This document shows, in pieces, positions 4,654-56,497 of a stretch of 64,000 nucleotides of DNA. Position numbers and translations under genes: made by a program. The notes under the pieces are model-generated. The model had not been told where the DNA came from and made no database searches. It saw only the letters and a list, made by a program, of their open reading frames with translations. Location: NCBI GenBank assembly GCA_021323165.1, contig JAJTCJ010000017.1:1-64000 (forward strand). Reading direction: 5' to 3'. Position 1 is the stretch's first letter, and each line of letters opens with the position of its first letter. Source of the stretch: Bacteroidota bacterium. GTDB lineage: Bacteria; Bacteroidota; Bacteroidia; 2-12-FULL-35-15.

Positions 4654-4823
4654 TAATTATATCTGTTTTAAATTTATTTCAATCAAAGGGAATCGATGAC
4701 TATTAAGATCGAGAAGTAAATTTAGTATTAAAATTCAGATGCTAAACTGCATCTTCAGTATCGAAACAAACTCCATATTTGGAACGATTTTTTATCTGCT
4801 ATTGCATATTTGAACAAAATCAT

Positions 4824-5273
4824 ATGAAATCAGCTTCCTTAATAACATGCGGAATTTATCTGTACGATAAAACATCGAATAAGATTCTGATCTGTCATGC
4901 AACCAACTCATCCTGGAAAACCTGGTCGATTCCCAAGGGAATAAAAGATGAAGGTGAAGAAGAGCAGGATGCTGCCATTCGGGAATTGGAAGAGGAAACA
5001 GGAATTAAGAAAAATGAATTGGATTTAAATTCTGTTATAAAATTGGAACCTGTCAAATATAAAAAACAGAATAAGTTCCTGCAGCCTTTTTTTATACTGA
5101 CTGCAACTTCATTAGAGGACAAAGAATTCACATGTTCAACAATGGTCAAAGAAGGTGTTCCTGAAATAGATAAATGGGCCTGGGTTAATCCGGAAGTAAT
5201 ATTAAACAAGCTGCATGAAAGCCAACAGCATCACTATTCGACTATCCTCCAGCTGATAGAAAGATCACACTAA
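4824..5273 (+). CDS. Nudix hydrolase
   Basis: A 149-aa Nudix-fold protein. The Nudix box GX5EX7REUXEEXGU is complete: G-IKDEG-E, then REL-EEETGI, so the Mg-binding glutamates are present. Such enzymes cleave nucleoside diphosphates linked to another group; the start SLITCGIYLYD and the sequence around WKTWSIPKG resemble the Ap4A-hydrolase / MutT-like branch, but the substrate is not certain. I chose the ATG at 4824 because the fold begins directly after it; the frame can be extended to 4779, which adds unconserved residues. It converges on ligD with only 3 bases between the stop codons. Confidence 0.88.
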   Translation: MKSASLITCGIYLYDKTSNKILICHATNSSWKTWSIPKGIKDEGEEEQDAAIRELEEETGIKKNELDLNSVIKLEPVKYKKQNKFLQPFFILTATSLEDKEFTCSTMVKEGVPEIDKWAWVNPEVILNKLHESQQHHYSTILQLIERSH

Positions 5274-5276
5274 TAA

Positions 5277-8015
5277 TTATTCCTTTTCAAAACCTGCGAT
5301 CACTTTTTCCAGATTGATCCCTTTTCCGATAACAGGCTTAAAGATATCTCCTTCACTCTTTACCCTGTCCAATGCATTGTGAATTGTAAAATCAGTCATC
5401 TTCAATCCTTTTTTAACTTCCTCCCAGTGCAAAGGCATTGAAACCGTAGCTCCCGGTTTCGGCCTTACAGAATATGGTGCTGAAACTGTTGCCTGGGCCC
5501 TATTCTGAAGGAAATCGATATACATCTTTCCTTTACGTGCTTTTACGGCCCGTTCAATACTTGTAAATTCAGGGATTGTCTGATGAACCAACCGCGCAAT
5601 AACCCGTGCAAATTCTTTCGATTGCTCATAGGTGTATTTTGTTCCCAAAGGAATATAAATATGTATTCCTGTTGATCCGCTTGTTTTGGGATAAGAAGGA
5701 ACACCCATACCATCGAGAACATCTTTGGTTACTCTTGCGGCTTCAATAACCTGATCGAAGGTGTTTTTAGCAGGATCCAGATCAATGATGCACCAATCGG
5801 GATAATCCTCAGTTTCAACCCTGCTGTGCCATGGATTCATTTCAATGCATCCTAAAGAAGCCATATACAATAAGCTTGCATCATCCTTAGCAACCAGATA
5901 GTTCCTATCTCTGTCATCCGCATCGCTATGATATAAAAATGTTTCAACCCAATCTGGCGCTTTACCTGTTACATCTTTATAAAAGAAATGTTGTCCGTTG
6001 ATCCCATCCGGATGCCGGTTCATTGACTGAGGCCGGTCTTTTAAATAGGGTAAGATGTAGGGAGCCATCTGATAATAATAATTCAGAAGATCGCGTTTGG
6101 TGATCTTTTCTTTTGGCCAGTAAAACTTACTCAGATTAGTGAATTTCAATTCATGACCATTCACTTTCCTTACTTGTGTTTCATCGGTCGGGTTTAAAAG
6201 AGTCTTTCTCTCTTTTTTTCCTGAAGGAACAATTATCTTCTTGCCAGAAATTTTTTCAGATGCAATTGCTTTAGAAGTTGATTTAGGTTTTTCGCGGATC
6301 ACATCGCTTGATTTTTTATCGATTCGCATACCTTCAAAAGATGGATGACGCATAATTCCGTCACTTGTCATTTCAGTGAAACTCACTTCGCATACCAACT
6401 TTGGTTTCAACCATGTTGCTGTAGCATTGGGAGGATTTGGCCGGAAACGCGAAGGTTTATTTATATCCGGAAGTTCTGTAAAAGGTGGTTTGTTGGTGAT
6501 CAATGGTTTGAACAACTTCATCATTTCCTGCTGGGTTTTATCACTGAATCCGGTTCCAATTTTTCCGGTATAGATCAGTTTACCATCATCATAAACCCCA
6601 ACCAGCAAAGCACTGAACTTTTTTCTGGAATCATCATTCAGCGTAAATCCTCCAATCACCATTTCCTGACGTTGGTTCGCTTTGATCTTAAGCCACTCTG
6701 TATTACGCACACCTATCTTGTATGTACTGTCGGCCTTCTTTGCGATAATCCCTTCAAGGCCCATTTTTTTTGCGGCTTCGAAGAATTCTATACCGGAACT
6801 TCCAAAGCTCTCACTGTATTTTATAATGCTATTTTCAGGTATTATTGATTGAAGAACAGCTTTTCTCTCTGTAAGCGGTAAACCGGTAAGATCTTTTCCT
6901 TCATACCACATAACATCAAACACATAAAATAATAATTCTCCATCCGCTTCACTTCTCCAGTTCTGAAGATCTCCGAAATTAGAGATGCCATTCTCCCCAA
7001 CCACCACAACTTCTCCATCTATCACGGCATCAACACCCCAGCCTTTTAAGGTTTTAACAACCGGATAAAATTTATCGTTGAAGGATTTATCATTTCTTGA
7101 TTTCAAATCAACCTTCTTTTTATTACAGAAAGCTACCGCACGATATCCATCCCATTTCACTTCATACACCCACCCTTCTTCTTCAAAAGGCTTGTCAACC
7201 AAAGTAGCCAGCATAGGTTTCAATGCTGACGGAAATTTTCCTTTTGGAGCACTCTTTAAAATTTCATCAGCATCCTTTTCTACTGATTCATCCTTTCCTT
7301 TTTTTTTTGCCGCCTTGGCGGCTCTTTTTACAGTTTTCTTAACAGCTTTTTTTGCAGAAGCTTTTTTAGATTTGGTAGTCTTCACTGCTTCCTTTTCTTT
7401 TTTAGAACTGTCATGTCCATTTGACCCATAAAAATGGGTGCTTGTTTTTGCAATTTGTTCCAATGTTTTTTTAGATATCACTGATTTATCTTTAAGGGTT
7501 ATATCATCTGAAGATGCATGCTCATCCTTAACTTTAAATAATAACCATCCATTCTCTCCTCTTCCGTGAGCTTTAACCAAGGCATATTCGCCTTTTAATT
7601 TTTTACCGTGAATATTAAAATGAAGTTTTCCTGATTTTAATCCCTGAAGGAAATATTTATCCTGCTCTTTTTTATTCTTGAATTCTCCTTTTGCCGGTTC
7701 ATAAAATCCTTCATCCCAAATTATAACAGTACCTGCACCGTAACCACTCGGAATGATGCCTTCAAAATTCCTATAATCATAAGGATGATCTTCCACCATC
7801 ATAGCCAGGCGCTTAACTTTAGGATCTGTTGATGGACCTTTTGGAACAGCCCAGCTTTTTAAAACGCCTTCCATTTCAAGTCTGAAATCATAATGCAGAT
7901 GAGAAGCGGCATGCTTCTGTATCACAAATCTCAGCTTATCATCTTTGGGTTTACCACCTGTAGGTTCGGGGCTTTCTTTAAAATTACGTTTTGCTTTATA
8001 TTTTGTTAATCCCAT
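5277..8015 (-). CDS. ligD: DNA ligase D (phosphoesterase-ligase-polymerase)
   Basis: A 912-aa protein with the three-domain order of Pseudomonas-type LigD, the enzyme of bacterial non-homologous end joining. Residues 1-190 are the 3'-phosphoesterase, with HxxxxxHYD metal and catalytic residues (H35, H41, D43). A Lys/Ala-rich linker (about 200-250) leads to the ATP-dependent ligase (about 260-560), whose adenylated lysine lies in EVKWDGYRA (K287), followed by an OB fold. Residues about 610-910 form the primase-like polymerase, with IIDLDP and SGSTGIHI motifs. The protein is full length and all three active sites look intact. No ku gene is visible in this window, so its partner must lie elsewhere. 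A terminator at 8071-8095 separates it from the gene upstream. Confidence 0.96.
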   Translation of the reverse strand: MGLTKYKAKRNFKESPEPTGGKPKDDKLRFVIQKHAASHLHYDFRLEMEGVLKSWAVPKGPSTDPKVKRLAMMVEDHPYDYRNFEGIIPSGYGAGTVIIWDEGFYEPAKGEFKNKKEQDKYFLQGLKSGKLHFNIHGKKLKGEYALVKAHGRGENGWLLFKVKDEHASSDDITLKDKSVISKKTLEQIAKTSTHFYGSNGHDSSKKEKEAVKTTKSKKASAKKAVKKTVKRAAKAAKKKGKDESVEKDADEILKSAPKGKFPSALKPMLATLVDKPFEEEGWVYEVKWDGYRAVAFCNKKKVDLKSRNDKSFNDKFYPVVKTLKGWGVDAVIDGEVVVVGENGISNFGDLQNWRSEADGELLFYVFDVMWYEGKDLTGLPLTERKAVLQSIIPENSIIKYSESFGSSGIEFFEAAKKMGLEGIIAKKADSTYKIGVRNTEWLKIKANQRQEMVIGGFTLNDDSRKKFSALLVGVYDDGKLIYTGKIGTGFSDKTQQEMMKLFKPLITNKPPFTELPDINKPSRFRPNPPNATATWLKPKLVCEVSFTEMTSDGIMRHPSFEGMRIDKKSSDVIREKPKSTSKAIASEKISGKKIIVPSGKKERKTLLNPTDETQVRKVNGHELKFTNLSKFYWPKEKITKRDLLNYYYQMAPYILPYLKDRPQSMNRHPDGINGQHFFYKDVTGKAPDWVETFLYHSDADDRDRNYLVAKDDASLLYMASLGCIEMNPWHSRVETEDYPDWCIIDLDPAKNTFDQVIEAARVTKDVLDGMGVPSYPKTSGSTGIHIYIPLGTKYTYEQSKEFARVIARLVHQTIPEFTSIERAVKARKGKMYIDFLQNRAQATVSAPYSVRPKPGATVSMPLHWEEVKKGLKMTDFTIHNALDRVKSEGDIFKPVIGKGINLEKVIAGFEKE

Positions 8016-8070
8016 ACTTCAAGAATATTTTTGATCTTTCATCTTTACTAAAAATTAAGTGCCAGTATAA

Positions 8071-8095
8071 ATAAAAAGCCGGCTTTCACCGGCTT
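8071..8095 (-). terminator. Terminator between the disordered-protein gene and ligD
   Basis: AAGCCGG and CCGGCTT are paired around a 6-base loop, followed on the minus strand by TTTTTA. It starts just after the stop codon at 8100, so most transcripts of the upstream gene should end here instead of reading into ligD. Confidence 0.75.
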
Positions 8096-8099
8096 ACAT

Positions 8100-8873
8100 T
8101 TATCTTGAACCATAACGGCCTTTGCCTCTTTTTACAGGCGCTTTGCCATCACGGTAATCATCCTGGTCTTCCCAACTTTGTCCTCGCTGCTGTCCATCCC
8201 TATGTCCGAAACCTTCAGTTTGGCCTGAACTCTGGTAACCACTGTTTCTGAATTCATGGTCATCCATCTCATCTTCATAACTATCTCTGTTATCATAACC
8301 TGAGCGGTTGTAACGATCCTGTTCATTCTGACTTGTATATGTTCCGCGTCTTCCTCCATCACTGTTAAAACGAAGATCTCTTGTTGCTCCGTTATAAACA
8401 TCTGCAACATAGTCATCAGGACCTATACCCGGATGTCTTTTATTACTACCACGATATTCTTCTGCTCCACGGCTTTCAGGATGCTCACCATACAAATTGC
8501 GTGAATTACGTCCTCCGCCTTGTCTTTCATTATGGTCGTTTCTATATTGACCCTCGGATGAAGAACCGTATTGACGTGAACGCATTTCATTCTCATAGGC
8601 TTTTCTTCCTTCGTAATATCCTCTTTCAAATTCTGACATTTGAGAAGACCTGCCGCCATCATTTCCATCAGAATTCTTTATTGAACCAGATCGCTGATTA
8701 GCTCTTGGCCAGTCGGATCCATTTTCCATTCTTAGATCATCTTCATCCTCACCCATATCAGTATTTTTACTGTTCGTTTTTTGTTTGCGTCCCAGCTGGT
8801 CTTTACCATTTCGTTTAAGGCTGGAACTGCCTGTCTTTGGCGATTGTGTGGCTTTGTCGGATTTGTTTTTCAT
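8100..8873 (-). CDS. Intrinsically disordered Arg/Gly/Asn/Ser/Tyr-rich protein
   Basis: A 257-aa protein without signal peptide or membrane segment. It is dominated by Arg, Gly, Asn, Ser, Asp, Glu, Gln and Tyr, with many RG, YR and DR dipeptides, and has almost no hydrophobic core. Only a short block near residues 80-95 (SEFERGYYEGRKAYENEM) looks able to fold as a helix. Composition resembles RNA- or DNA-binding low-complexity proteins and stress-related glycine-rich proteins. A lysine-rich start and basic end suggest nucleic-acid contact, which is inference. It lies directly upstream of ligD on the same strand. That the frame is coding is supported by its length and its own terminator. I know no family for it. 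Confidence 0.65.
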   Translation of the reverse strand: MKNKSDKATQSPKTGSSSLKRNGKDQLGRKQKTNSKNTDMGEDEDDLRMENGSDWPRANQRSGSIKNSDGNDGGRSSQMSEFERGYYEGRKAYENEMRSRQYGSSSEGQYRNDHNERQGGGRNSRNLYGEHPESRGAEEYRGSNKRHPGIGPDDYVADVYNGATRDLRFNSDGGRRGTYTSQNEQDRYNRSGYDNRDSYEDEMDDHEFRNSGYQSSGQTEGFGHRDGQQRGQSWEDQDDYRDGKAPVKRGKGRYGSR

Positions 8874-42687: not shown

Positions 42688-43116
42688 TCATTCGTTATAA
42701 TCACTTGGAGCTATGCATGTCTTCCAGTATTCAACGATCTTTTTCATTGTATCTTCAAGCTCCTGGATCTCACTGGGTTTACGAAAAAATCCCTGAACAG
42801 ACATTGCATAAGCATCAGCAACTGAAGTCTTATCCGCACCTGTACTGAAAAACAAAAAAGGCACGCACTTTAATGCCAATGCTTTATTTTCATGGATCTT
42901 TTGTCTGAGCTCAAATCCATTGATCTTCGGCATATTGATATCGGAGATTATCAGGAAAGGAGTCTTATCAGTTTTATCAAGGAATTCAAGCGCATCATTA
43001 CCATCAGTAAAAAACTGCAGCTCATTAGAATAATCCAGATTTTTAAATATTTCAGTTAATATCCTTTGATCGCCCTGATTATCCTCAATTACGATTATTG
43101 GTCCGTGTTTGTCCAT
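42688..43116 (-). CDS. Single-domain response regulator
   Basis: A 142-aa stand-alone receiver domain. It has the acidic pair (ED, residues 11-12), the phosphate acceptor in FLIISDINMPK (D59), a Ser/Thr in FLFFSTGADK and the conserved Lys in QGFFRKPSE. There is no output domain, so it acts by protein contact or as a phosphate relay. It is divergent from the receiver-kinase pair at 43302, 186 bases away, and the gap between them holds nothing but the likely promoters. The closest pattern is the CheY/Rcp1-like receivers common in Bacteroidota. Confidence 0.9.
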   Translation of the reverse strand: MDKHGPIIVIEDNQGDQRILTEIFKNLDYSNELQFFTDGNDALEFLDKTDKTPFLIISDINMPKINGFELRQKIHENKALALKCVPFLFFSTGADKTSVADAYAMSVQGFFRKPSEIQELEDTMKKIVEYWKTCIAPSDYNE

Positions 43117-43301
43117 TCTCTTTTTTATTCCTTCCTTCTAAACATTCATACCCGGGTATATTATTTGTAAATAAACTAATGATAATAAGAACCAAAGAAA
43201 AGCGGACATCCCGGTCAGATGTATGGGGGAAAAACTTCTACATGCTTTTTTTCTGAATATTAAAATCAATAAATATCTTTATTCAACAGTAAATTTAAAT
43301 T

Positions 43302-43682
43302 ATGCCGTATCACCATTTACTACTTATTGATGACGATGATGATGATCAGGAGATCTTTCTAACCGCACTTGAAAAAGTATCAAAATCAGTAAAATGCACA
43401 ACATTCAATAATGCCAAGGAAGCTTTAGAAGCCCTCATAAATAAAGAAGTTGAGCCGGATGTTATTTTCCTTGATCTCAATATGCCTTTGATGAACGGAC
43501 AGCAATTCTTAATGGAAATAAAGAAAATCGATAGCCTCAAAAAGATCCCGGTGATCATTTTTTCAACTTCTTCTCATTCAGGAACCATTGAGCTTACAAA
43601 GGAACTTGGTGCTCACGATTTTATAACTAAGCCCGATAAGTTTGATGATCTTATTAATATACTGAAGCCTCTTATCAATTAA
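43302..43682 (+). CDS. Single-domain response regulator cotranscribed with a PAS kinase
   Basis: A 126-aa receiver domain of the Rcp1 type. It begins LLLIDDDDDDQEIFLTALE (an extended acidic run), with the phosphate acceptor in VIFLDLNMP (D58), then VIIFSTSSHSG and the Lys in FITKPDKF. Its TAA overlaps the ATG of the kinase at 43682 (TAATG), so translation is coupled and the kinase is its likely partner. A -7-like TATCTTTA lies upstream at about 43273-43280. Confidence 0.92.
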   Translation: MPYHHLLLIDDDDDDQEIFLTALEKVSKSVKCTTFNNAKEALEALINKEVEPDVIFLDLNMPLMNGQQFLMEIKKIDSLKKIPVIIFSTSSHSGTIELTKELGAHDFITKPDKFDDLINILKPLIN

Positions 43683-46177
43683 TGAGTACAATACTAATTC
43701 ATTTGGAAAAAGAAATTACTAAAACCAAGCATCAATTCCTCCAGGGTGGCGGAGAGATGGGAGAATTAACCAGGGAATACGACTGGGCTAATACACCGAT
43801 CGGAGAGCCCGACAAATGGCCACAAAGTTTACGGACAACTGTCGCCATGATACTGAATTCTAAATTCCCCATGTTCCTGTGGTGGGGAGAAGATCTGATC
43901 CAGTTTTATAATGATGCTTACCGACCGAGCCTTGGTAATGAAGGTAAGCATCCGACAGCATTAGGACAAAAAGGAAAAGACTGCTGGCCTGAGATCTGGG
44001 CTGTTATTTATCCACTGATCAAGCAGGTAAGAGAAACAGGAGAAGCAACCTGGAGTGAAGATCAGCTTATCCCCATCTATCGAAACGGAAAATTAGAAGA
44101 TGTTTACTGGACCTTTGGTTACAGTCCGATCAGAGGTGAAACCGAAGAAATAGAAGGAGTTCTGGTAGTGTGTAATGAAACTACTGAGAAAGTTCAGAAC
44201 AATCAAAAGCTTGAACAATCAGAAAAGCGTTTTCAAAATCTCATCAGGGAAGCAACCGTTGGAATTGTTGTCTTAACAGGTCAAGACATGGTCGTGGAGG
44301 TTGTTAATGAATCATACGGAAAGCTGATCGACAGAAAACCAGAAGAGCTGATAGGAAAAAAGCTCTTTGAAATTATCCCGGAAACCGGACCATATTTTAG
44401 GAAAATGATGGAAGGAGTCAGGGATACCGGAAAACCTGTATTCTTATATGATCATCCGTATTTTGTGTATTCAAAAGGAGAAAAGATCGAAGGGTATTTG
44501 AACATCATTTATCAGCCATACCGTGAAGAAGATGGAAGAACAACCGGAGTAATGGCTTTATGTCATGATGTTACGGAGCAGGTTCTCTCAAAGAACAGAT
44601 TACAGATAAGTGAAGAACGGACAAAAAGCCTTGTAGAAAGTGCACCATTTCCTATAGGTGTATATATCGGAAAAGATATGGTGATCGAACTTGCTAATCA
44701 GGCGATTCTTGATGTGTGGGGAAAAGGGAATGATGTTATTGGCAAAAAATATTCTGATATTCTTCCGGAACTTGAAAATCAGAAGATCTTTGATCAGCTG
44801 GAAAGTGTTTATACAACCGGAATGCCTTTTCATGCAAAGAACCAGCGAGTGGATCTAGTCGTAGATAATAAAATGCGGATCTATTATTTCAATTACAGCT
44901 TCACACCTCTTTACAACAGTCATGGAGATATCTATGGCGTAATGAATACTGCTGCCGATGTTACTGACCTTGTTAAAATAAAAACTCAGCTGGAAAAAAG
45001 TGAAGATAATTTAAAGAACACCATTCTGCAGGCACCAGTTGCTATGTGTCGTTTACGTGGGGCCAATCACCTTGTTGAGATCGCAAACATACGAATGCTG
45101 GAGCTGTGGGGAAAAACAGGAGAAGAGATCATTAACAAGCCTTTGTTTGAAGGGTTGCCCGAAGCCAAGGATCAGGGCTTTGAAGCTATGCTTGATAATG
45201 TTTATCAGAACGGAGCAACCGAGATAGCGCAGGCTGTCCCGGTTACCTTACCCCGTAACGGGACCCTTGAGGTAGTTTATGTAAACTTTGTTTACGAAGC
45301 TTATCATGAACCTGATGGAAGCGTTTCTGGGATCATGGTTGTGGCTTCCGATGTAACAGCCCAGGTAATAGCAAAAAATAAAATTGAAGAAGTTGTTGCG
45401 AAACGCACAAAAGAACTTGCTGACACTAACAGTGATCTTCAGCGTTCGAATGCGGAGCTTGCTCAGTTTGCATATATCGCCTCACATGACCTTCAGGAAC
45501 CTTTGAGAAAGATAAGCACTTATACGCAAATGCTTGAGAATCAGCTTGAGAATATTGATGACAAATCAAGAAACTATTTTAATAAGATCACAAGTGCTTC
45601 CTCAAGGATGAATAAACTTATCCGTGATGTACTTACCTATTCTGAACTGGTAAGGGAAAACGATGTGTTTGAAAAAGTAGATCTTAATAAAATTGCAGAT
45701 GCAATCACTAACGATTTCGAGTTATTGATTGAGCAAAAGCAGGCTGTGATAAAATATCATGATCTTCCTGTGATTGAGGCAATACCATTACAGATGTCTC
45801 AGCTCTTCAGTAATATGCTTTCAAATGCGCTGAAGTTTTCCAAACCCGGTGTAAAGCCAGTTATTACTATCTCATCAAAACAATTATCTTCCAATGAAGT
45901 TAAACTGATTCCTGATCTCGACCCTAAAAAATTATATTATAAAATAGTGTTTAAGGATAATGGAATTGGATTTCGCTCGGAACACGGAGAGCAGATCTTT
46001 AATATCTTTCAGCGCCTTCATCGCAAATCCGAATATGAAGGAACAGGTATAGGATTAGCTATGTGTAAAAAGATTGCAAAGAATCACAATGGCGATGTTA
46101 ATGCTGATGGAACATCCGACAAAGGGGCAATATTCAACATTATCCTGCCGGCAACACATGTTTCGATTAAAAAGTAA
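43682..46177 (+). CDS. Multi-PAS sensor histidine kinase
   Basis: An 831-aa cytoplasmic kinase with no membrane segment. Four PAS-type domains follow each other (about 35-175, 185-305, 310-430 and 440-565); the first contains PIGEPDKWPQSLRTTVAMIL, found in photo- and redox-type kinases. HisKA (about 590-660) has the phosphorylated His in ASHDLQEPLRK (H602), and HATPase_c (about 695-825) has NMLSNALKFSK, FKDNGIGF and GTGIGLAMCKKIAKNH. The PAS domains could bind small ligands or a flavin, not determinable here. It is coupled to the receiver upstream. A perfect 13-bp hairpin follows. Confidence 0.93.
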   Translation: MSTILIHLEKEITKTKHQFLQGGGEMGELTREYDWANTPIGEPDKWPQSLRTTVAMILNSKFPMFLWWGEDLIQFYNDAYRPSLGNEGKHPTALGQKGKDCWPEIWAVIYPLIKQVRETGEATWSEDQLIPIYRNGKLEDVYWTFGYSPIRGETEEIEGVLVVCNETTEKVQNNQKLEQSEKRFQNLIREATVGIVVLTGQDMVVEVVNESYGKLIDRKPEELIGKKLFEIIPETGPYFRKMMEGVRDTGKPVFLYDHPYFVYSKGEKIEGYLNIIYQPYREEDGRTTGVMALCHDVTEQVLSKNRLQISEERTKSLVESAPFPIGVYIGKDMVIELANQAILDVWGKGNDVIGKKYSDILPELENQKIFDQLESVYTTGMPFHAKNQRVDLVVDNKMRIYYFNYSFTPLYNSHGDIYGVMNTAADVTDLVKIKTQLEKSEDNLKNTILQAPVAMCRLRGANHLVEIANIRMLELWGKTGEEIINKPLFEGLPEAKDQGFEAMLDNVYQNGATEIAQAVPVTLPRNGTLEVVYVNFVYEAYHEPDGSVSGIMVVASDVTAQVIAKNKIEEVVAKRTKELADTNSDLQRSNAELAQFAYIASHDLQEPLRKISTYTQMLENQLENIDDKSRNYFNKITSASSRMNKLIRDVLTYSELVRENDVFEKVDLNKIADAITNDFELLIEQKQAVIKYHDLPVIEAIPLQMSQLFSNMLSNALKFSKPGVKPVITISSKQLSSNEVKLIPDLDPKKLYYKIVFKDNGIGFRSEHGEQIFNIFQRLHRKSEYEGTGIGLAMCKKIAKNHNGDVNADGTSDKGAIFNIILPATHVSIKK

Positions 46178-46216: not shown

Positions 46217-48553
46217 TTATTTCAGTTCTTCAATTTCCATTTTGAGAGGATCTTTAACCTCATTATAACATTTTTCTATCTCATTATATTTGAGACGTAT
46301 CTCCTCTATAGGATATTTATTATCTGCCAAACGCTCCACCTGCTTGATTATATCACCAGTTTCTTCAATACCCAAAGTAAGAAATAAGCCCTTCATACTA
46401 TGCGCGTATATTTTAATATCCCCATAATTTTTCTGATCTATTGAGGACTTTAGTTTTGTAAGTGCCTGCGGAACATCATTAATAAACAAGGTGATCATTT
46501 CAATGATAAATTCCTTATCACCATCAGCATGATCGATGAGGTAATCAAGATTAAATAAAGGCTTCCCTTTAGATACATTTTTAACAACCACTTTTTCAGG
46601 TTTGCCGGACTTATTCATTAGCTGCATGATCACTTTTTTTAAGTAGTTTGCATTAAAGGGTTTTGACACATATGCATTCATCCCGATATTGATACATCTC
46701 TCAGCCTCAGAATTGGACGCATGCGCAGTAATAGCAATTATCGGAATGTTCTTTTTACGATAATCCTTCATGTCCCTGATAATACGAGTGGCAGTATAAC
46801 CATCTATTTCAGGCATCTGAATATCCATCAGTATAAGATCATAATCCTTCTCTTTTAATTTTTCTATCGCTTCTGCTCCATTGTTAGCAATATCAAGTTT
46901 ATACTTCCACTTGGCCATTATCTTCTGAACAAGCCTTTGATTCAAAGGAATGTCCTCTGCAAGCAGAACTGAATATGATTCATTACTATCTGAAGTTACA
47001 CCAACATTTTTCGTTATATCCACGCTTGGTTTTTCGGTGGTCTTCTTAAATCGCATAATAAAGTTAAAAGTAGAACCTACTCCTTCTTTGCTTTCTACTT
47101 CTATCTTTCCGCCTTGAAGTTCTACCAATTGCTGAACAATTGTCAAACCCAAACCAGTACCACCATATTTCCTTGTTGTATCTGAAGAGCCCTGCGTAAA
47201 TCTTTCAAATATCAATTTGATCTTTTCAGGAGGAATTCCAATGCCTGTATCTTTAATACTGAACTTATATTTAATATCAAGCCCGGTATCTTCCAAAACT
47301 TCTGTACTGATGCTCACCTCACCTTTTTCTGTGAACTTGATGGCGTTACCAATAAGGTTCAGGAGTATCTGACTTAATCTTGCTGAATCACCCATTAAAT
47401 ATTCAGGAGATGCCGGATCTATTTTAATACTGATCTGAATATCTTTTTCCTGAGCTCTGTGTTCAACCAATTCAACAACTGATCTAATAATTTCAGTCAC
47501 ACTGAAACTCGCTTCTTCAAAAATAAATTTTCCTGCTTCTATTTTAGAAAGATCAAGTATATCATTAATGATTACGAGCAAGTTTTTACCAGCAAAATCA
47601 ATAGATTCAACATATTCTCTTTGCTCAGGATTCAATTGTGTTTCTTTAAGAAGCTCCTGAAAACCAAGGATCGCATTTAAAGGAGTGCGGATCTCATGGC
47701 TCATACTTGCCAGGAATTGTTCTTTTACGGTTTTAGATTCTTCGGCTATTTTTTTAGCAGCGATAAGCTTTGCATTTTTTTCAACGAGTTCCTGGGTTCT
47801 TTCTTTAACTCTTAATTCAAGCTGATTATTAGTTTCAGATAATGTATGATCATGTTTTTCAATCTTCTCAATCATTTTATTAAAGGCCATAGAAAGTTTC
47901 GCTACTTCATCCTTTCCTTTAAAACGGGAACGCAGACTGAAATTCCCGCTTTTCATTACATCTTCCATTACATTAACCAGATCAATGATTGGAGTTGAAA
48001 TATATTTCTGTAAGAAATATGCAAGGAAGTAAGCTAATAATCCGCCTATAAAAATGATCAGTAGCGCGAGTTTCATTTTTTTATAAAGCTGTGCTTGAAT
48101 ATCTGAAAGATCAACCTTCAGGCATACTGTACCAAGCCACTCCTTATTACTGAATATTTTATAATAAACGAACAGATCATTTCCACTTGTATGAGAGAAC
48201 ATGTTCATTTTAGGTACATACGAAAATGTAAACGGGTCTGCCTGTTTGCGCGTAAATGCAGCGAATACTTTCCCTGTAGTGTCAATAATACTGGCGTTGG
48301 TTATTGTTGATTCAACATTAAGATCGGTAAGTGTTTCATAAGCAGTTTCTGTATCACCAAAAAGGATTGGAGCTACTGTATTTGAACCAATAACCTGTGC
48401 AATGGAAGAACTTGATTTGATCTTATTCTCACGCATTGCCTTATAATCGATGACCACAAATGTAAGGGAACATAAAACGATCACTACCACAGCAGTGGTA
48501 AGCTGCATTAAGATCAGCTTACGGTGAATCGATATATTAGTTAACAATCCCAT
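46217..48553 (-). CDS. CHASE8-type hybrid histidine kinase (HK-REC-HPt)
   Basis: A 778-aa membrane kinase. Two membrane helices (about 15-35 and 160-180) enclose a periplasmic domain whose sequence (SSSIAQVIGSNTVAPILFGDTETAYETL) matches the CHASE8-type sensor of YfiN. HAMP (about 180-240) comes next, then HisKA with the phosphorylated His in SMSHEIRTPLN (H286), HATPase_c (NLIGNAIKF, DTGIGIP and GGTGLGLTI), a receiver with Asp 577 in LILMDIQMP, and an HPt domain with His 718 in YAHSMKGLF. A full His-Asp-His phosphorelay is therefore present, with no DNA-binding output. Its ATG overlaps the yfiR stop (TAATG), so it is coupled to that gene. Confidence 0.93.
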   Translation of the reverse strand: MGLLTNISIHRKLILMQLTTAVVVIVLCSLTFVVIDYKAMRENKIKSSSSIAQVIGSNTVAPILFGDTETAYETLTDLNVESTITNASIIDTTGKVFAAFTRKQADPFTFSYVPKMNMFSHTSGNDLFVYYKIFSNKEWLGTVCLKVDLSDIQAQLYKKMKLALLIIFIGGLLAYFLAYFLQKYISTPIIDLVNVMEDVMKSGNFSLRSRFKGKDEVAKLSMAFNKMIEKIEKHDHTLSETNNQLELRVKERTQELVEKNAKLIAAKKIAEESKTVKEQFLASMSHEIRTPLNAILGFQELLKETQLNPEQREYVESIDFAGKNLLVIINDILDLSKIEAGKFIFEEASFSVTEIIRSVVELVEHRAQEKDIQISIKIDPASPEYLMGDSARLSQILLNLIGNAIKFTEKGEVSISTEVLEDTGLDIKYKFSIKDTGIGIPPEKIKLIFERFTQGSSDTTRKYGGTGLGLTIVQQLVELQGGKIEVESKEGVGSTFNFIMRFKKTTEKPSVDITKNVGVTSDSNESYSVLLAEDIPLNQRLVQKIMAKWKYKLDIANNGAEAIEKLKEKDYDLILMDIQMPEIDGYTATRIIRDMKDYRKKNIPIIAITAHASNSEAERCINIGMNAYVSKPFNANYLKKVIMQLMNKSGKPEKVVVKNVSKGKPLFNLDYLIDHADGDKEFIIEMITLFINDVPQALTKLKSSIDQKNYGDIKIYAHSMKGLFLTLGIEETGDIIKQVERLADNKYPIEEIRLKYNEIEKCYNEVKDPLKMEIEELK

Positions 48554-49092
48554 TAATTTTTAATATTCAATGCTAATTTTAATAGCTGAGAACTCGCCTT
48601 AATATTGTTTCTGTTGAGTGAATTAAGATTCACTTCAAATTTTATCTTGTTATTTACAATAAGGAAGTTGATCGCGGATCCTAAGTCCAGATCACCTTTT
48701 TGTTCGCTTACAATAAGTGCATTCTTTATAGAAGGGGCTTGTAAAGACCTCTTAATGTGTTCAGGAGAAATATGTTCAGGAATAAATAGCATATGACAGG
48801 TTTTAATATCTCCTGCATCACTGTATTTAGTTATGTTGATCTTCTTATTGTTGATCTTTTTATTTGCTGCCAGATCATTTAAAGGGCTGACTATTGGCGA
48901 ATCACCTAAAACACAAATATTGAAAGTTGAAGCATTGTTCAATGAATTATCTTCCCACTCTACAAATTTCGTAAAATTGTACATGAAGGCTGCCTTTGCC
49001 TGATACTCTTCAACCTCTGTTTGAATCATCACAAAGGATGAACCTAACAGGAGTAATAGAAACATAAATAAGCAACAGGCTTTTCTTTTCAT
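48553..49092 (-). CDS. YfiR family (DUF4154) periplasmic protein
   Basis: A 179-aa protein with a signal segment (about 1-22) followed by the YfiR/DUF4154 domain: EYQAKAAFMYNFTKFVEWED, TFNICVLGDSPIVSPLNDLA, CHMLFIPEHISPEHIKRSL, ALIVSEQKGDLDLGSAINFLIVNNKIKFEVNLNSLNR. In Pseudomonas YfiR is a periplasmic repressor that binds the CHASE8 domain of the cyclase YfiN. Here it lies directly before a kinase with a CHASE8-like domain, with overlapping stop and start codons, so it may well control that kinase in the same way. A 40-base spacer separates it from the nucleotidase-like lipoprotein. Confidence 0.9.
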   Translation of the reverse strand: MKRKACCLFMFLLLLLGSSFVMIQTEVEEYQAKAAFMYNFTKFVEWEDNSLNNASTFNICVLGDSPIVSPLNDLAANKKINNKKINITKYSDAGDIKTCHMLFIPEHISPEHIKRSLQAPSIKNALIVSEQKGDLDLGSAINFLIVNNKIKFEVNLNSLNRNNIKASSQLLKLALNIKN

Positions 49093-49132: not shown

Positions 49133-49885
49133 TTATTGAAACTTTATTCGATTTTCGATTAAAGGAGTAACAGGAGTATTTAATATTATATATTCTTTAA
49201 TTGCATTTGATTGATTCTCCTGAAGATTTTCTTTCATTGAAGATGAAATATTCTTAAGAGTAACATAACCATCATTTCCATCGGCAATGAAGGCAGGAAA
49301 CGCCACAGTATAAACTGTATTCGAATCAAGCATAGCCTCCTGGATCTTAACAGATGTAATTCGGTTGCCCGGACTTATTATTACAGTTCCTTCTATATTA
49401 ATGACCTGAGGTGACTGATTAGTATCGATAGTAATTTCAAGTTCTTTTGAGAGTTGCAGAAAGGGTCCTTTGGTTAATGGATATTGTGCAACAGAGCGTT
49501 CAAATACCGATTTAAGATCTTTGCCATTCAGTTTGATCAAAACTGTAGGATCCCCGAATGGAAGCATTTCATCAATCATTTCAGCAGTAATAATTCCACT
49601 CGGATAAATTCCATTTGGTCTTTTTGAAGCGCTGTAACGGATACTTCCCGCATTTACCACAGCACAATCAATTAACTTTCCTTTACTAACCACATTATTA
49701 AAAATAGCATCACATATAAGGTTTCCGATCACAGATTCTTTTTTCCTGATTACATTTTCCCTGGCATCCATATCCACAGTAACCGTTCCCAATGCTGTAG
49801 GTTCAGGTAAGTGCTCATCTTTACGGCAGGCATCCGCCAATAACAGAAGTAAAATGAAACTTGAAATTTTCAGAACTGTTTTCAT
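49133..49885 (-). CDS. Lipoprotein with a stand-alone 5'-nucleotidase C-terminal domain
   Basis: A 250-aa lipoprotein (lipobox LADAC, Cys 20). The whole mature part corresponds to the C-terminal domain of periplasmic 5'-nucleotidases (UshA type): ESVIGNLICDAIF, CAVVNAGSIRYS, YPSGIITAEMIDEMLPFGDPTVLIKLNGKDLKSVFERSV and NTVYTVAFPAFIADGNDGYVTL. In full enzymes this domain binds the nucleotide base and the separate metallophosphatase domain cuts the phosphate. No metallophosphatase gene is found beside it, so binding rather than catalysis is suggested. It is 5 bases downstream of the TonB receptor and is certainly in the same operon. Confidence 0.88.
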   Translation of the reverse strand: MKTVLKISSFILLLLLADACRKDEHLPEPTALGTVTVDMDARENVIRKKESVIGNLICDAIFNNVVSKGKLIDCAVVNAGSIRYSASKRPNGIYPSGIITAEMIDEMLPFGDPTVLIKLNGKDLKSVFERSVAQYPLTKGPFLQLSKELEITIDTNQSPQVINIEGTVIISPGNRITSVKIQEAMLDSNTVYTVAFPAFIADGNDGYVTLKNISSSMKENLQENQSNAIKEYIILNTPVTPLIENRIKFQ

Positions 49886-49890
49886 TTTCC

Positions 49891-52023
49891 TTATAATTTA
49901 TAAATTACATTCAGCAGTAATGAAGGCCCGGGCTGAATAAGTCCCTTTAATCCAAATGCATTGATATTTGTGGATTCTTCAGGATCACTGTATTTTTGTG
50001 TCCCAAGATTATTTCCAATAATATTGATATTTAAATGCTTATTAACACTATACCCTAAGGTGATATTTCCCTGTAAATAATAAGGGATACGAACATAGTG
50101 ATCGGTTTCCAGATAAAAGCGTTTATTATTTTCGGCTTCGTTACCATAGTTAATTCCAATAGCTATGAATACTTTTTTTATTGTGTAATCAAATCCTCCG
50201 TTTAATTTTAAGGTTGGGACATTCCTAAGCTCTTTGTAATAATCCGGCTGCTTATCATAAAACGCAACATCAGATGCTCTTACATTATTTTCATTCCACT
50301 TGAACGTACTTAAGAACTGAGAATAATTTGCAAAAACATGGAATTCAGGTGCAAGAGCTAGTGTAATTGTTCCCCCATTTCCGTAAGTTTCGACATCCCC
50401 GATATTCTCGTATATACCAATACTTCCTCCCCCATGTGGATCATAAACTCTTATTAAATTTCTATTCTGAATGTAATACAGGTTGTATTTTATCTGCAGC
50501 TTTTTATAATTGATCACTGTACCTATTTCGACTGTATTAATATCTTCAGGAGTGAGCTTAGTATTGCCTTTTACCCCATACTCATTGCCAATTGTTGAAT
50601 TATCATATAACTCCTGGAATGAAGGTGCCCGGAATGCTTTTCCGTATAAACCTTTAAAATGAATATGCTGGGTAGCTTTATAAGTAATGCCCAAACGCGG
50701 GTTAACAGACTGACCAAAATCATTATAGTCATCATATCTCAATCCTGCTGTTACTGTAAATTTCTTTATACGGAAATTAGTTTGAAGGAAATATGCAAAA
50801 ACGAATCTTCTTTTTTTATCCTGAGTAAATTCAATATTATCATAATTATTAAAAGCTCCTTGATATTCATCTCCCACAATTTTATAATTACGTGACAGAT
50901 CATATTTCGCCAGAGAAAGATCTTCGAACACGCTGCCTGTTAAGATATCAAAATGTTCATTGGCTTTAATGTAAATATCAAGAGAACTTCCGTAGGTCAC
51001 TCCAGTGTATTTTTCTCGTGTAAGCTTACCATCTGGAAAGAGATCTCCTGAAGTAGCTGATACATAATTATCAGGTGCCTCCTGATTAAGAAAATCATGC
51101 GTATTTGAATTATAATAAAGTTTAGGAGTTATTATAACATTATCGCCAATCCTGTAGTCATAAAAAATATTTGCTGCAAGCTGATTGGTAATTAATTTGG
51201 AATCAGGTGACGCAATAAAAACCGGACCGACCCAACTCCCTTGCTGCCTGTAAATATTAAATAAATTAAAGTGCAGATTATTAGAAACTAAATTACAATT
51301 TACATATCCATCCTTATTCCAACGGTTAGTTCTATAATTTTTATCCATGTAAGTTAAGCTCCATTCCTGATCTTTTACTTTATCACTTTCGATCAGTTGT
51401 GAGTTACCATCGCTCTGATAATATCCTAGTGAAAGATCAAGTTTAACTTTCTCGTTTTGAACAGTATAATTTGCGTTTGCATTTAGTGTCGAATTCAATC
51501 CACCGGTAACGCTAACGGAGGTCTGACTTATAGTAAAGATGTTTATTACGCCAGCCATTGCGTTACTTCCGTAAATTGCAGATCCGGGTCCACGGATAAT
51601 TTCGACTTTCTCTATAAAATCTAATGGAAGATCATAAATAGCCCTTCCATTATAAAAATCATTTATCTGTTGGCCATTTATCAAAACCAATATATTACCA
51701 TCTTTGCGGCCTCCGCGTAAAGAAATCCGATATTGTCCATCTGTTCCCATACTCGTTTCGATTCCCGGGATAAATTTCAAGAGATCAATAAGTGTGATCG
51801 CTCCAAAATTCTTAAAATCGGAATGTTCAATAACAGAAATAATTGCGGGTGCTTCTGTTTCTAATTGTGGTTTTTTAGCCGCGCTGAATACTTTCAACTC
51901 TAGAAGTTCTTCAAGAGAAAGGTCAGCGATATCACCGTTCTTTCCCGTTGAATCATTTTGGGAAAATGAAATCAGAGGAAAAAAGAGTATTATGACAAAA
52001 AGTATTGTGTTTCTATTAACCAT
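49891..52023 (-). CDS. TonB-dependent outer-membrane receptor
   Basis: A 710-aa receptor with a signal peptide (about 1-21). A short N-terminal stretch (SLEELLELKVFSAAKKPQ) stands before the plug, as in receptors that start with SLEELL. The plug (about 55-175) has LIDLLKFIPGIE, YRISLRGGRKDGNILVLINGQ and IEIIRGPGSAIYGSNAMAGVINI. A 22-strand barrel makes up the rest, ending in PGPSLLLNVIYKL with aromatic/hydrophobic C-terminus. It needs TonB-ExbBD to import its ligand. No carboxypeptidase-like N-domain of SusC type is present and no SusD gene follows. It is the first gene of the operon with the 5'-nucleotidase domain, YfiR and the hybrid kinase; the ligand is unknown. Confidence 0.92.
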   Translation of the reverse strand: MVNRNTILFVIILFFPLISFSQNDSTGKNGDIADLSLEELLELKVFSAAKKPQLETEAPAIISVIEHSDFKNFGAITLIDLLKFIPGIETSMGTDGQYRISLRGGRKDGNILVLINGQQINDFYNGRAIYDLPLDFIEKVEIIRGPGSAIYGSNAMAGVINIFTISQTSVSVTGGLNSTLNANANYTVQNEKVKLDLSLGYYQSDGNSQLIESDKVKDQEWSLTYMDKNYRTNRWNKDGYVNCNLVSNNLHFNLFNIYRQQGSWVGPVFIASPDSKLITNQLAANIFYDYRIGDNVIITPKLYYNSNTHDFLNQEAPDNYVSATSGDLFPDGKLTREKYTGVTYGSSLDIYIKANEHFDILTGSVFEDLSLAKYDLSRNYKIVGDEYQGAFNNYDNIEFTQDKKRRFVFAYFLQTNFRIKKFTVTAGLRYDDYNDFGQSVNPRLGITYKATQHIHFKGLYGKAFRAPSFQELYDNSTIGNEYGVKGNTKLTPEDINTVEIGTVINYKKLQIKYNLYYIQNRNLIRVYDPHGGGSIGIYENIGDVETYGNGGTITLALAPEFHVFANYSQFLSTFKWNENNVRASDVAFYDKQPDYYKELRNVPTLKLNGGFDYTIKKVFIAIGINYGNEAENNKRFYLETDHYVRIPYYLQGNITLGYSVNKHLNINIIGNNLGTQKYSDPEESTNINAFGLKGLIQPGPSLLLNVIYKL

Positions 52024-52298
52024 AAATTAAAAACGACTAACTAGTCAAATTTATAGATAAATCGACTCTCGCGCAACAAAAACTTTAATATGTTTATAAT
52101 CTGGAAAAAAGGGAAAATATATCCCCGACCAGTACTTACATATAAGTTCTAATAAGAAATCTCGGAAACCGGCTTCTGACAATATACTCGATAAGAGACA
52201 AATGTAATTTTCTTCATTGGCAGATTATTTTACCGGGATTCTCGATCAGCTATTAAAACTCCCTGGATAGCATATTATTAAACTATAATTTTCTATGC
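52024..52298. other. Divergent intergenic region, no gene seen
   Basis: These 275 bases separate the start of the TonB-receptor operon (minus) and the start of the SBBP gene (plus). They must contain two promoters. I see AT-rich sequence without a convincing TAnnTTTG box, no hairpin and no reading frame of note. Confidence 0.4.
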
Positions 52299-53948
52299 AT
52301 GAAAAAAAGCTACTTTGTTTTTATAATCAGTTTTGTATACTGTAACTGTTTTGCCCAGGATTTTCTATGGTCAAAAGTCGAAGGAAAATATGCTTACGAT
52401 TACGGTTATGGTATCGCTACAGACAATTCAGGGAACGTTTATGTGACCGGTAAGTATGAAGAGCTTGCAGATTTTAGCGGAACCATCTTACCAAATCAGG
52501 GTAACCATGATATTTACCTTGCTCAATATTCCCCTTCTGGAAATTTAAACTGGATAAGGACCGGTGGAAGTTATACCGGTGACTATGCCCGTATTCTTGC
52601 CTGCGATAAAACAAGTCATGTATATATAGCAGGGGAAATAGAAGGAGTTAATTCTACCATAGTATTTCCGGGCTCTTCCATAACAATTACCGGACATGGT
52701 GAAAATGATGTGTTTGTCGCTTCGTACGATCTTAATGGAAATTTATTATGGGCCAGAAGTGAAGGTGGAATTTATAATGAAAAAGCTTTGGGTGTTGCCT
52801 ATGATATGTTGGGAAATGTAATAATATGTGGATTTTTCAATGACACAACCAACTTTGGAGGAACTACATATGTAGGAAATGGAGGCAAAGATCTTTTTGT
52901 TGCGAAATATGATTCTAATGGAAATCTTTTGTGGATGAAACACGCTGGAGGTCCTGGGGAAGAAGAGGCAAAATCTGTAGTATGTGATGATGATGGAAAT
53001 ATTTACATCTGCGGCAAATATTCAGATGGAGTAATTTTCGGAGATGATGATTATTCAACAGCAGTAACTCAATACGGACAATTCTTTAATGGATATGTCG
53101 CAAAATACTCATCTGATGGGACCTTTCTATGGATGAAAAATATAGATGGTGATTATGACGATATTGCTTGGTCAATAACAAAGGATAACAATCATAGAAT
53201 TTATGTAACCGGGGAGTTCAGCGGTGCGGTATTCGATTCTCTTACATTATATACCTATGGGAAAGCTGATGTATTTGTTGCATGTTATGATGAAGAAGGC
53301 GTTATTCAGTGGGCGGTGCACGGAGGAGAATTACTTGCTGACAGAGCAAGAGGCATTGGTACTGATGGAGACAAGATTTTCATTACCGGTCAGTTTGCCG
53401 GAACTGCCGTGTTTGGTGATCATACAATTTCTGCAATTGACAGTTCAGATATTTTTGTGGCCGGACTCGACAATACAGGTCAATTCCTATGGGCAAGATC
53501 TGTTGGTGGAATAGCTGACTCTTATGAGCCTGATGGTTATGAATCCGGAATTGCAGTGTGCGGTGACACATCCGGGGTAGTATATTTCACAGGAGCGTTA
53601 TTAAATGGCGGTGTCTTCGGAAATACAAGTCACTACGGATATACAAGAACGGATGTTTTTATATCAAAATTATCTACTGTTGTTGGCCTTGACGAGAGAG
53701 TAAACAATAAGAATCAACTCTTGATCTATCCTAACCCCGGAACCGGAATATTCAAAATCTCCACAAATCAGATCAAAGGACATGACACGGAAGTTAGTGT
53801 ATATAATTACCTGGGAGAACTTGTTAAACCGGCAGATATTACAAACTCTGAAATGCATATCGACCTTTCAGATCAGCCAAAAGGAATTTACTTTGTTCAT
53901 GTTAATTCAGGGAATAATTCATTCATTGAAAAGATCATCCTGAATTAA
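52299..53948 (+). CDS. Secreted SBBP-repeat propeller protein with T9SS sorting domain
   Basis: A 549-aa protein with a signal peptide (about 1-20, ending CFAQ). Residues 22-465 are repeats of the SBBP type: DNSGNVYVTGKYE, NLNWIRTGGSYTGD, DNNHRIYVTGEFSG and similar, each with an Asp/Asn loop and a Trp near the strand end, giving eight to nine blades. Residues about 475-549 are a type A T9SS sorting domain (IYPNPGTGIFKIS...GIYFVHVNSG). It should be exported to the surface or medium. The repeats show no enzyme motif. Confidence 0.88.
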   Translation: MKKSYFVFIISFVYCNCFAQDFLWSKVEGKYAYDYGYGIATDNSGNVYVTGKYEELADFSGTILPNQGNHDIYLAQYSPSGNLNWIRTGGSYTGDYARILACDKTSHVYIAGEIEGVNSTIVFPGSSITITGHGENDVFVASYDLNGNLLWARSEGGIYNEKALGVAYDMLGNVIICGFFNDTTNFGGTTYVGNGGKDLFVAKYDSNGNLLWMKHAGGPGEEEAKSVVCDDDGNIYICGKYSDGVIFGDDDYSTAVTQYGQFFNGYVAKYSSDGTFLWMKNIDGDYDDIAWSITKDNNHRIYVTGEFSGAVFDSLTLYTYGKADVFVACYDEEGVIQWAVHGGELLADRARGIGTDGDKIFITGQFAGTAVFGDHTISAIDSSDIFVAGLDNTGQFLWARSVGGIADSYEPDGYESGIAVCGDTSGVVYFTGALLNGGVFGNTSHYGYTRTDVFISKLSTVVGLDERVNNKNQLLIYPNPGTGIFKISTNQIKGHDTEVSVYNYLGELVKPADITNSEMHIDLSDQPKGIYFVHVNSGNNSFIEKIILN

Positions 53949-53987: not shown

Positions 53988-56192
53988 TTAAAGTGAATAT
54001 CTCACATTTAAATAAAAACTTCTTCCCCTGGTTCTGAATCCGTTGATCTCAGAGTATTTCTCATCAAGCACATTTGCAACTCTGAGGCCTGCGCTTAAAC
54101 CTTTCCAGATCTTAACATTTGCAGACAGATCAAGAAGTGTATATTGTTTTACATTTACAGTTCCCAATGCACCATATGGTCCCAGAGCCGGATCATAAAC
54201 AACATCACCGCGTCCTCCGACATAACGAACATCTGCTCTAAGCATGAGTATAGTTATTGGGCGATATGTTAAAGAAATGTTAGCTGTGTTCGGCCTGCGT
54301 GATAATCCTAAAACCTCTATATCCTTATCATTGATGAAAGAACCATTGCTGTATATCTGAACATGGTTTCCTCCTGTCTGAGCCGTATCAATATTTTCTT
54401 TAGTATATTTTAATTTACCGCTTGTTAAACTTAGGTTTGCCGATACCGTAATCTTTCCAGAGATCTTACTGCTGATCCCCAACTCCACTCCTTCAGTGGT
54501 CATGGAAGCAGCATTAATATATGTATCACCGCGGTAATCATCTCTTCCCCAGTTTTGTCCTAATGTATCCGTTCCAATATTTTTATCCCAGAGATAAACA
54601 TATTCAATTACATTTTCAACAACTGTTTTATAATATGCGGCAGAAAGCTCAATATTATTTATTCTTTGTTTAAATCCCACTTCAAATGTTTTAGAAGTTT
54701 CCGGGTTCAGTTTTTTATTCCCTCTGTTCAAACCTGTTGAAGGTTGTCCATCCCATGGCTTATATGCAGTAGGATCATACAACTGATAAAGAGAAGGAGC
54801 ATTATAACCCGTGGAATAAGTCATGTAAAGCAACGCTGTTTCTGTGATCTTAAAAGACGGATTAATCTCGTATGTTATATTACTTCCAAATATACTGTGA
54901 TCACTGTATCTCAACCCTCCGGATAAATTCAGCCAATTATATTTATCATTGATCAACTCCCCTCCGATATCAGCATGCATAAATATGCTTCCTGTAGTAG
55001 ATTTCGGATCAACAGAATCAACGGATGTTTTTATTTCTTCGTAACCAGCCGGAAAACTCCACATATTGTAATAATAAAGGCTTGTATTTATTCTCATTGA
55101 TTCAGAATACACACCACCGCCAACAACAGCACTCAGACCTTTGATCTTGTAATTGGCCTGGAGCTCTTCGCTTTCTAATTTCCCTTTGTAAGTATTCTTG
55201 ACATATTGTCTGTCATTATCCCCATTGCTATTGATACGGGATGAATCATCTATCGCGATCCTTTTCATATCCGACATCCCGCCAATATATGAAACGCTTA
55301 ATTTCTCATTCACTTTATATGATGCACCAAAAGTGAACAGATTTCTTTTAAAGTCTAATGTATAATTATCATCATCACGATAAGCCCCTTTATCTATTTC
55401 GGTGAATTGATTCGTTTGTTTGAATGAAGCATATACATCAATTTTTTTATTATTAAAACCTGCTTTAACAAGCCAGTCAAGCTTATCAAAATCATCGCTC
55501 ATATCGGAATGTTTATAGGCTGTAGTGCTTTTGACAGTATCTTCTGTCGCATTCATGCCTTGAACATTGGTATTATAAAGCTCAGCAGAAACATACAGTC
55601 CGTTCTTTAAAGCATAATTCAGATATACATTTTCTGAGATCTCTGAAGTATTGTTACCGAAAGTACCTCCCAAAATAGATACATCTGCTGAAAGACCCGC
55701 CTTCTCAGACTTTTTAGTAATGATATTTATCACTCCCCCGATAGCTGCTGACCCATATAAAGTGCTGTGGGAACCTCTTACAATTTCAATTTTCGAAATA
55801 TTAGCAAGAGATAGTTCTGAAACATCAATCGCATTATTAATTGCGGAAGGATCGGTGATACGCACACCGTCAATTAAAATAACAGTTTGATTACTGTTGG
55901 CCCCACGTGTAAATATACTGGAGGTTAGACCCGGATTCTGACCTGCTCCAACAGCATACATTCCTTCCTGCACTGTTAGTAATTCGGCAACAGACGTTGC
56001 ACCGGATCTTTTAATCTCTTCAGAAGTGATTACACTAATACTTCTGCCAACATCATTGGGATCTTGTTCACTTCGTGTTGCTGTAATAACAACTTCCTTT
56101 AATTCTTTTTTCTTTAATGAATCCTGAGCGGATACACTCATTGATAAACACAGAAAGGTGCTTACCGCAATAAAACATTTTTCCTTTTTCAT
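53988..56192 (-). CDS. btuB: TonB-dependent cobalamin receptor BtuB
   Basis: A 734-aa TonB-dependent receptor with a signal peptide (about 1-22), a TonB-box region ELKEVVITATRSEQD (about 30-43), and the plug (about 45-165: ISVITSEEIKRSGATSVAELL, TRGANSNQTVILIDGVRI, SKIEIVRGSHSTLYGSAAIGGVINI). The barrel ends in RGRSFYLNVRYSL with the aromatic C-terminal signature. The best evidence for the ligand is the cobalamin riboswitch directly upstream at 56309-56478. In Escherichia coli BtuB imports vitamin B12, and B12 represses its expression through such an element. It is convergent with the SBBP gene. Confidence 0.92.
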   Translation of the reverse strand: MKKEKCFIAVSTFLCLSMSVSAQDSLKKKELKEVVITATRSEQDPNDVGRSISVITSEEIKRSGATSVAELLTVQEGMYAVGAGQNPGLTSSIFTRGANSNQTVILIDGVRITDPSAINNAIDVSELSLANISKIEIVRGSHSTLYGSAAIGGVINIITKKSEKAGLSADVSILGGTFGNNTSEISENVYLNYALKNGLYVSAELYNTNVQGMNATEDTVKSTTAYKHSDMSDDFDKLDWLVKAGFNNKKIDVYASFKQTNQFTEIDKGAYRDDDNYTLDFKRNLFTFGASYKVNEKLSVSYIGGMSDMKRIAIDDSSRINSNGDNDRQYVKNTYKGKLESEELQANYKIKGLSAVVGGGVYSESMRINTSLYYYNMWSFPAGYEEIKTSVDSVDPKSTTGSIFMHADIGGELINDKYNWLNLSGGLRYSDHSIFGSNITYEINPSFKITETALLYMTYSTGYNAPSLYQLYDPTAYKPWDGQPSTGLNRGNKKLNPETSKTFEVGFKQRINNIELSAAYYKTVVENVIEYVYLWDKNIGTDTLGQNWGRDDYRGDTYINAASMTTEGVELGISSKISGKITVSANLSLTSGKLKYTKENIDTAQTGGNHVQIYSNGSFINDKDIEVLGLSRRPNTANISLTYRPITILMLRADVRYVGGRGDVVYDPALGPYGALGTVNVKQYTLLDLSANVKIWKGLSAGLRVANVLDEKYSEINGFRTRGRSFYLNVRYSL

Positions 56193-56308
56193 TTTTTTTG
56201 AATGATTTAAATAGTAAATAAAAAGGAATAAAAAGTGAACGGATTAGATTGTTCTGAGGATCTTTTTCCATTCTTAGCTCTTTACCCGAAAGCATTGAAT
56301 TATTGCAA

Positions 56309-56478
56309 AATGGCAGGTCTCCTGACTTACTCTTGTGCGCCTTCCCATAACGCATGTGCGGTACAGTGGCTTTTGGGGAACACTTTTCTGAATGATACAG
56401 AATGAGCTTACAGTTGCGGGAACAGTCCTTGAATTTAACAAGGTTCCCTTTTAACCCTTCCACTGATGGAAAGGACCA
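56309..56478 (-). ncRNA. Cobalamin (adenosylcobalamin) riboswitch upstream of btuB
   Basis: Read on the minus strand the element shows TTAAAAGGGAACCTTG, the B12-box core TTCCCGCAACTGTAAGC, AGCCACTGTACCGC, and the closing GTAAGTCAGGAGACCTGCC. These match the conserved segments of the cobalamin riboswitch. It ends about 117 bases before the btuB ATG, leaving room for an expression platform around the start codon. A minus-strand reading frame at 56068-56463 overlaps it and is not a gene. Confidence 0.95.
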
Positions 56479-56489
56479 AAATTGCGCGG

Positions 56490-56497
56490 CAAAGATA
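56490..56497 (-). promoter_or_regulatory. Bacteroidota -7 box for the riboswitch-btuB transcript
   Basis: Minus-strand TATCTTTG, a full match to TAnnTTTG. Transcription would start just before the riboswitch. Confidence 0.6.

Follow-up and report, generated by a model that had tools for sequence, protein, structure and literature searches.

A stand-alone 5'-nucleotidase C-terminal domain lipoprotein encoded between a TonB-dependent receptor and YfiR-like/CHASE8 kinase genes in Bacteroidota: a possible nucleotide receptor

Extracellular nucleotides are abundant both as nutrients and as signals. In the 64,000-nucleotide stretch of Bacteroidota DNA analysed here (the window), one gene on the reverse strand (49133-49885) encodes a 250-aa protein that the initial annotation described as the substrate-recognition half of a 5'-nucleotidase, anchored at the envelope next to a TonB receptor, and read as a protein for import or sensing rather than hydrolysis. 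What could half of an enzyme be doing in such a place? If that reading is true, an enzyme half has been reused as a receptor. In a literature search, we found no description of a TonB-linked nucleotide receptor, or of a TonB-dependent receptor (TBDR) linked to a nucleotidase domain. We use “NucC” as a working name for the C-domain lipoprotein family to which this protein belongs.

The identification of NucC as a stand-alone 5'-nucleotidase C-terminal domain lipoprotein was borne out by the Pfam domain, by residue mapping onto CD73, and by a fold search. PF02872 is the sole Pfam domain in the protein (residues 33-211, profile positions 3-157/158, E=5.3e-30, 105 bits against a cut-off of 23.6), and the Pfam search of all 250 aa detected no metallophosphatase domain. 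The N-terminus, as read from the sequence, has a hydrophobic signal that leads into Cys20 in a lipobox-like context (LLLADAC); this cysteine is invariant in 7/7 full-length family members and reads as a putative lipid anchor. The best solved relatives are the C-domains of human CD73 (E=2e-19). An AlphaFold2 model of moderate quality, built from a 7-row alignment (mean pLDDT 77, pTM 0.75), finds as its best PDB folds the C-domains of CD73, Thermus 5'-nucleotidase, and UshA, with E-values down to 6e-18. Compared with its L071 orthologue, the window gene differs at 32% of first, 16% of second, and 58% of third codon positions, a pattern that indicates purifying selection. The mature protein begins with C-R-K-D-E in the window and in L071, which fits the surface-export signal of Capnocytophaga, K-(D/E)2 at positions +3 to +5 (PMC5080379), a consensus derived from an organism different from the present host. 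Because the other five full-length NucC proteins lack C-R-K-D-E, surface exposure of NucC is only suggested.

Is the substrate pocket still there? The base-binding aromatic residues, on which the initial annotation had made its reading depend, are both kept: F110 and F199 of NucC align with CD73 F417 and F500. In addition, R47, N78, R83, and D205 align with CD73 R354, N390, R395, and D506. In CD73, F417 and F500 sandwich the base, the ribose is held by D506, R354, and R395, and the phosphate is held by R354 and R395; AMP analogues are bound via R354, R395, F417, F500, and D506 (PMC7508162). Within the NucC family, R47, N78, R83, and D205 are kept in all seven full-length members, the F199 position is Phe or Tyr in all seven (Tyr in L074 and L076), and F110 is kept in six, with Leu in L072. 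NucC thus has in common with the C-terminal domain of UshA/CD73 both the fold and the substrate-side residues; it differs in having no metallophosphatase domain, and so no metal site, and in being a lipoprotein encoded in a TBDR operon. Since the phosphate-side arginines are kept, the ligand would more probably be a nucleotide carrying phosphate than a nucleoside. Part of the CD73 phosphate grip comes from the other domain, so NucC, being a lone C-domain, may bind with low affinity. The Leu at the F417 equivalent in one member also speaks against a ligand-binding reading.

The gene lies second in a four-gene reverse-strand operon, in the order TBDR, NucC, YfiR-like periplasmic protein, and CHASE8-HAMP hybrid histidine kinase. 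The spacing is tight: 5 bp between TBDR and NucC, 40 bp between NucC and the YfiR-like gene, and -1 bp (a 1 bp overlap) between the last two. The TBDR (49891-52023, 710 aa) carries PF00593 and PF07715; it scores 135 bits with the NCBIfam TOL_0244 TBDR model (cut-off 645) and 123 bits with a B12-receptor model (cut-off 600). The YfiR-like protein (48553-49092, 179 aa) matches PF13689 (E=3e-40) and, at 126.3 bits, passes the cut-off of 125 of NF053591 (NCBIfam TOL_0243). The kinase (46217-48553, 778 aa) reads CHASE8-HAMP-HisKA-HATPase-REC-Hpt, with CHASE8 at E=1.2e-12 (48 bits, cut-off 27) and Hpt at E=2e-6, and scores 163 bits with the NCBIfam model HK_near_YfiR_like (cut-off 194). A pattern scan also gave a putative Bacteroidota-type -33/-7 promoter, TTG...TAAATTTG, at 52046-52079 on the reverse strand; it is a consensus match only and lies 53-56 nt ahead of the ATG of the TBDR gene. 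The two downstream genes had been missed by the initial annotation, and because the operon continues into them, the sensing side of its import-or-sensing reading gains support.

This operon resembles two known arrangements. TBDR-YfiR-kinase triads, represented by the NCBIfam families TOL_0244, TOL_0243, and HK_near_YfiR_like, have the same three partners in the same order; the NucC operon differs in its extra lipoprotein gene between the TBDR and YfiR genes, and its TBDR and kinase fall below the NCBIfam cut-offs. Such triads without NucC occur elsewhere in the phylum (L051, L057, L059, L065, L066, and L068). Since they are already known and common, NucC is best regarded as an added input module, and if the reading is true, it is a candidate input for these triads. 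A literature search found no paper linking the parts of the YfiR-TBDR-kinase triad. The second resemblance is to YfiBNR, in which YfiR represses YfiN by a hydrophobic contact between YfiR F162 and the YfiN motif AAVVF, and YfiR is in turn sequestered by YfiB, a lipoprotein of the outer membrane; the outputs of Yfi systems are modular, and histidine kinases are among them (PMC3375315, PMC4887326 for the contact and the sequestration; PMC3375315 for the outputs). In an alignment to YfiR structures, F152 of the YfiR-like protein aligns with P. aeruginosa YfiR F162. Residues 61-65 of the kinase, where the CHASE8 match begins, are APILF, the Phe of which is invariant in 10/10 aligned kinases; APILF is the apparent counterpart of AAVVF, YfiN itself lying outside that kinase alignment. 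The window kinase has a CHASE8 domain, and so have 4/4 other NucC-operon kinases tested. The likeness to YfiBNR therefore comprises a YfiR-like repressor type, a CHASE8 sensor with a YfiR-contact motif, and an outer-membrane lipoprotein encoded in the operon. The differences are that NucC is a nucleotidase C-domain and not an OmpA/Pal-like YfiB (no OmpA-like lipoprotein was found in the operon by Pfam), that the output is a hybrid kinase and not GGDEF, and that a TBDR is added.

How widely is this arrangement conserved? A single-protein scan of genome contigs found no relative of NucC, and an alignment-based scan found six further loci. The same gene order is seen in five of them: L017/L071 (genome G016), L018/L072 (G001), L020/L075 (G163, from a different family from the window genome), L073, and L074. 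The very distant L076 has only the TBDR-NucC pair, with YfiR and kinase genes not nearby. A TBDR of one subfamily precedes NucC in 7/7 loci, which confirms and extends the receptor neighbourhood noticed earlier. In a sample of 395 genomes from the class, NucC and this TBDR subfamily each turned up in three genomes, and these were the same three; as only the best candidates per genome were scored, absences are approximate. Profile A1, at 1e-20, matched the window only among 396 genomes of the phylum, so the family is rare. Both the pocket and the operon position are conserved across lineages that are 34-63% identical. Two loci vary in the gene itself. In L073, TBDR and YfiR flank two tandem NucC genes (6962-7714 and 7764-8516), which suggests that there are two ligands or that the receptor is heteromeric. 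In G163, the NucC gene (L020 8100-8744, = L075) is interrupted by a frame break that costs the protein its last third, at the C-terminus, while the operon persists; at the break, another frame reads a short peptide with HEVIGH, which has no Pfam match. The break is either a natural lesion or an assembly error. In L076, the TBDR of the pair (4318-7759) has a lysine-rich N-terminal extension.

It should be mentioned that a C-domain lipoprotein standing alone is in itself nothing unusual in this group, which qualifies the interpretation of the initial annotation. Across 36 genomes of the family, some 20 short PF02872 proteins have genes that overlap one for a metallophosphatase of about 317 aa, and about 20 genomes of the genus carry such a lipoprotein; most related genomes thus have a split 5'-nucleotidase. 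NucC shares with these the lone C-domain and the lipobox, but differs in having no adjacent metallophosphatase, in forming a separate clade, and in retaining about 40 extra residues, as well as a counterpart of R354, that the split C-domains lack. In the tree, the NucC clade (support 98/97) stands apart from split, SoxB-like, and canonical C-domains; because of long branches, its deep placement is unsure. The window genome has a split pair of its own on contig C60, where a C-domain lipoprotein gene overlaps the metallophosphatase gene. Its C-domain belongs to the other clade and lacks the R354 equivalent and the extra residues, so the tree and R354 argue against an origin of NucC from it. A fused metallophosphatase/PF02872 protein of 591 aa in the window genome (G000 contig C169, L003 1285-3060, reverse strand) is SoxB-like (275 bits, cut-off 550) and has lost the base-stacking Phe; for both reasons we rejected it as the source of NucC. 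Relatives of this fused protein occur in several other genomes of the genus.

These facts bear on whether NucC might be one half of an active 5'-nucleotidase, completed in trans by a metallophosphatase encoded elsewhere, such as that on C60. Split enzymes are frequent in the genus, and pairs are found not only in the window genome but also in those of L073-L076, G001, and G016. However, a search for a partner adjoining NucC found none in the window or in the six other loci (0/7), as the initial annotation had stated for the window, and the separate metallophosphatase that it had thought worth seeking, although present on C60, overlaps the gene of its own C-domain from a different clade. We therefore consider an enzyme in trans quite unlikely. 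A functionless, decaying remnant of a fused nucleotidase is less probable still, to the point of being very hard to credit: the truncated G163 copy is what such decay would look like, yet the purifying-selection pattern, the tandem duplication in L073, and the conservation of pocket and position all point the other way.

The explanation that we prefer is that NucC is a non-catalytic outer-membrane lipoprotein built from the substrate-binding domain of a 5'-nucleotidase. Its two aromatics and two arginines would hold the ligand, a nucleotide or a molecule that contains one, between them, and NucC would deliver this ligand to the TBDR, or gate the TBDR, in the manner of BtuG with BtuB. The event, be it occupancy or transport, would then be relayed to YfiR, which would bind the CHASE8 domain via the same hydrophobic contact as in YfiBNR, and the output of the kinase would be altered through its REC and Hpt domains. 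The NucC/TBDR pair would thus be the input at the outer membrane, a position occupied in YfiBNR by the lipoprotein YfiB. A TBDR with a surface lipoprotein lid is an established arrangement, as in BtuB-BtuG (PMC10404256). NucC resembles BtuB-BtuG and SusCD in that a TBDR has a lipoprotein partner encoded in its operon, with ligand binding by NucC being putative; it differs in that its fold is unrelated to their lipoproteins (no SusD-like or BtuG Pfam domain was found in NucC) and in that signalling genes are present in the operon. The steps are not equally firm. That YfiR acts on the CHASE8 kinase here is a well-founded inference, whereas control of YfiR by NucC or the TBDR is a hypothesis. For the whole model, in which a non-catalytic binder hands its ligand to or gates the TBDR and its occupancy is read by YfiR and the kinase, we see the chances as evenly balanced. 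A narrower formulation is more tentative, and we lean somewhat against it: the four parts would together form an envelope sensor of nucleotides, or of cofactors resembling them, outside the cell, with NucC as the receptor lipoprotein of a TBDR dedicated to this task and with signalling via YfiR to the CHASE8 kinase. The broken NucC gene in the persisting G163 operon counts against the preferred explanation.

The strongest rival to this explanation is that NucC serves uptake only, as a BtuG- or SusD-like surface lipoprotein feeding the TBDR; the role of YfiR and the kinase would then be confined to regulating the operon, or some other process, along the triad route that existed before. No pair is more constant than TBDR-NucC, the two co-occur among genomes, triads stand as units without NucC elsewhere, and since L076 has no adjacent YfiR or kinase gene, signalling is not obligatory for NucC. 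Against this, 6/7 loci have the NucC gene flanked by those for the TBDR and YfiR, and only two members have the surface-export signal; we regard uptake alone as possible but rather doubtful. Alternatively, the C-domain fold could have been co-opted as a periplasm-facing adaptor that sequesters YfiR upon TBDR activation, ligand binding being unimportant. Such a role would suit an operon shared with YfiR and a CHASE8 kinase, and it would match that of YfiB, which sequesters YfiR and is also a lipoprotein of the outer membrane (PMC4887326, PMC3375315), but an adaptor has no need of the full ligand residue set that is kept, and L076 retains NucC where YfiR is not nearby. This makes the adaptor improbable, if less so than an enzyme in trans.

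Several features surround the operon. A cobalamin riboswitch (RF00174, E=3e-21) at 56295-56495 on the reverse strand lies upstream of a BtuB-like TBDR gene (53988-56192, reverse strand) that adjoins the NucC operon but is separate from it, and G016 has the same arrangement (riboswitch at L017 16147-16341, reverse strand). Neither the NucC operon of the window nor the other NucC operons yielded a riboswitch, and a vitamin B12 system was rejected for this operon because the riboswitch belongs to the separate BtuB-like TBDR. A divergent gene on the forward strand (52299-53948) encodes an SBBP repeat and a type IX secretion sorting tail; it is conserved next to the operon in G016 and was not seen in the other NucC loci. 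Beside the kinase end of the operon, at 42688-46177, lie response regulators and a multi-PAS histidine kinase, partly conserved in G016, which the CHASE8 kinase might have as targets or partners.
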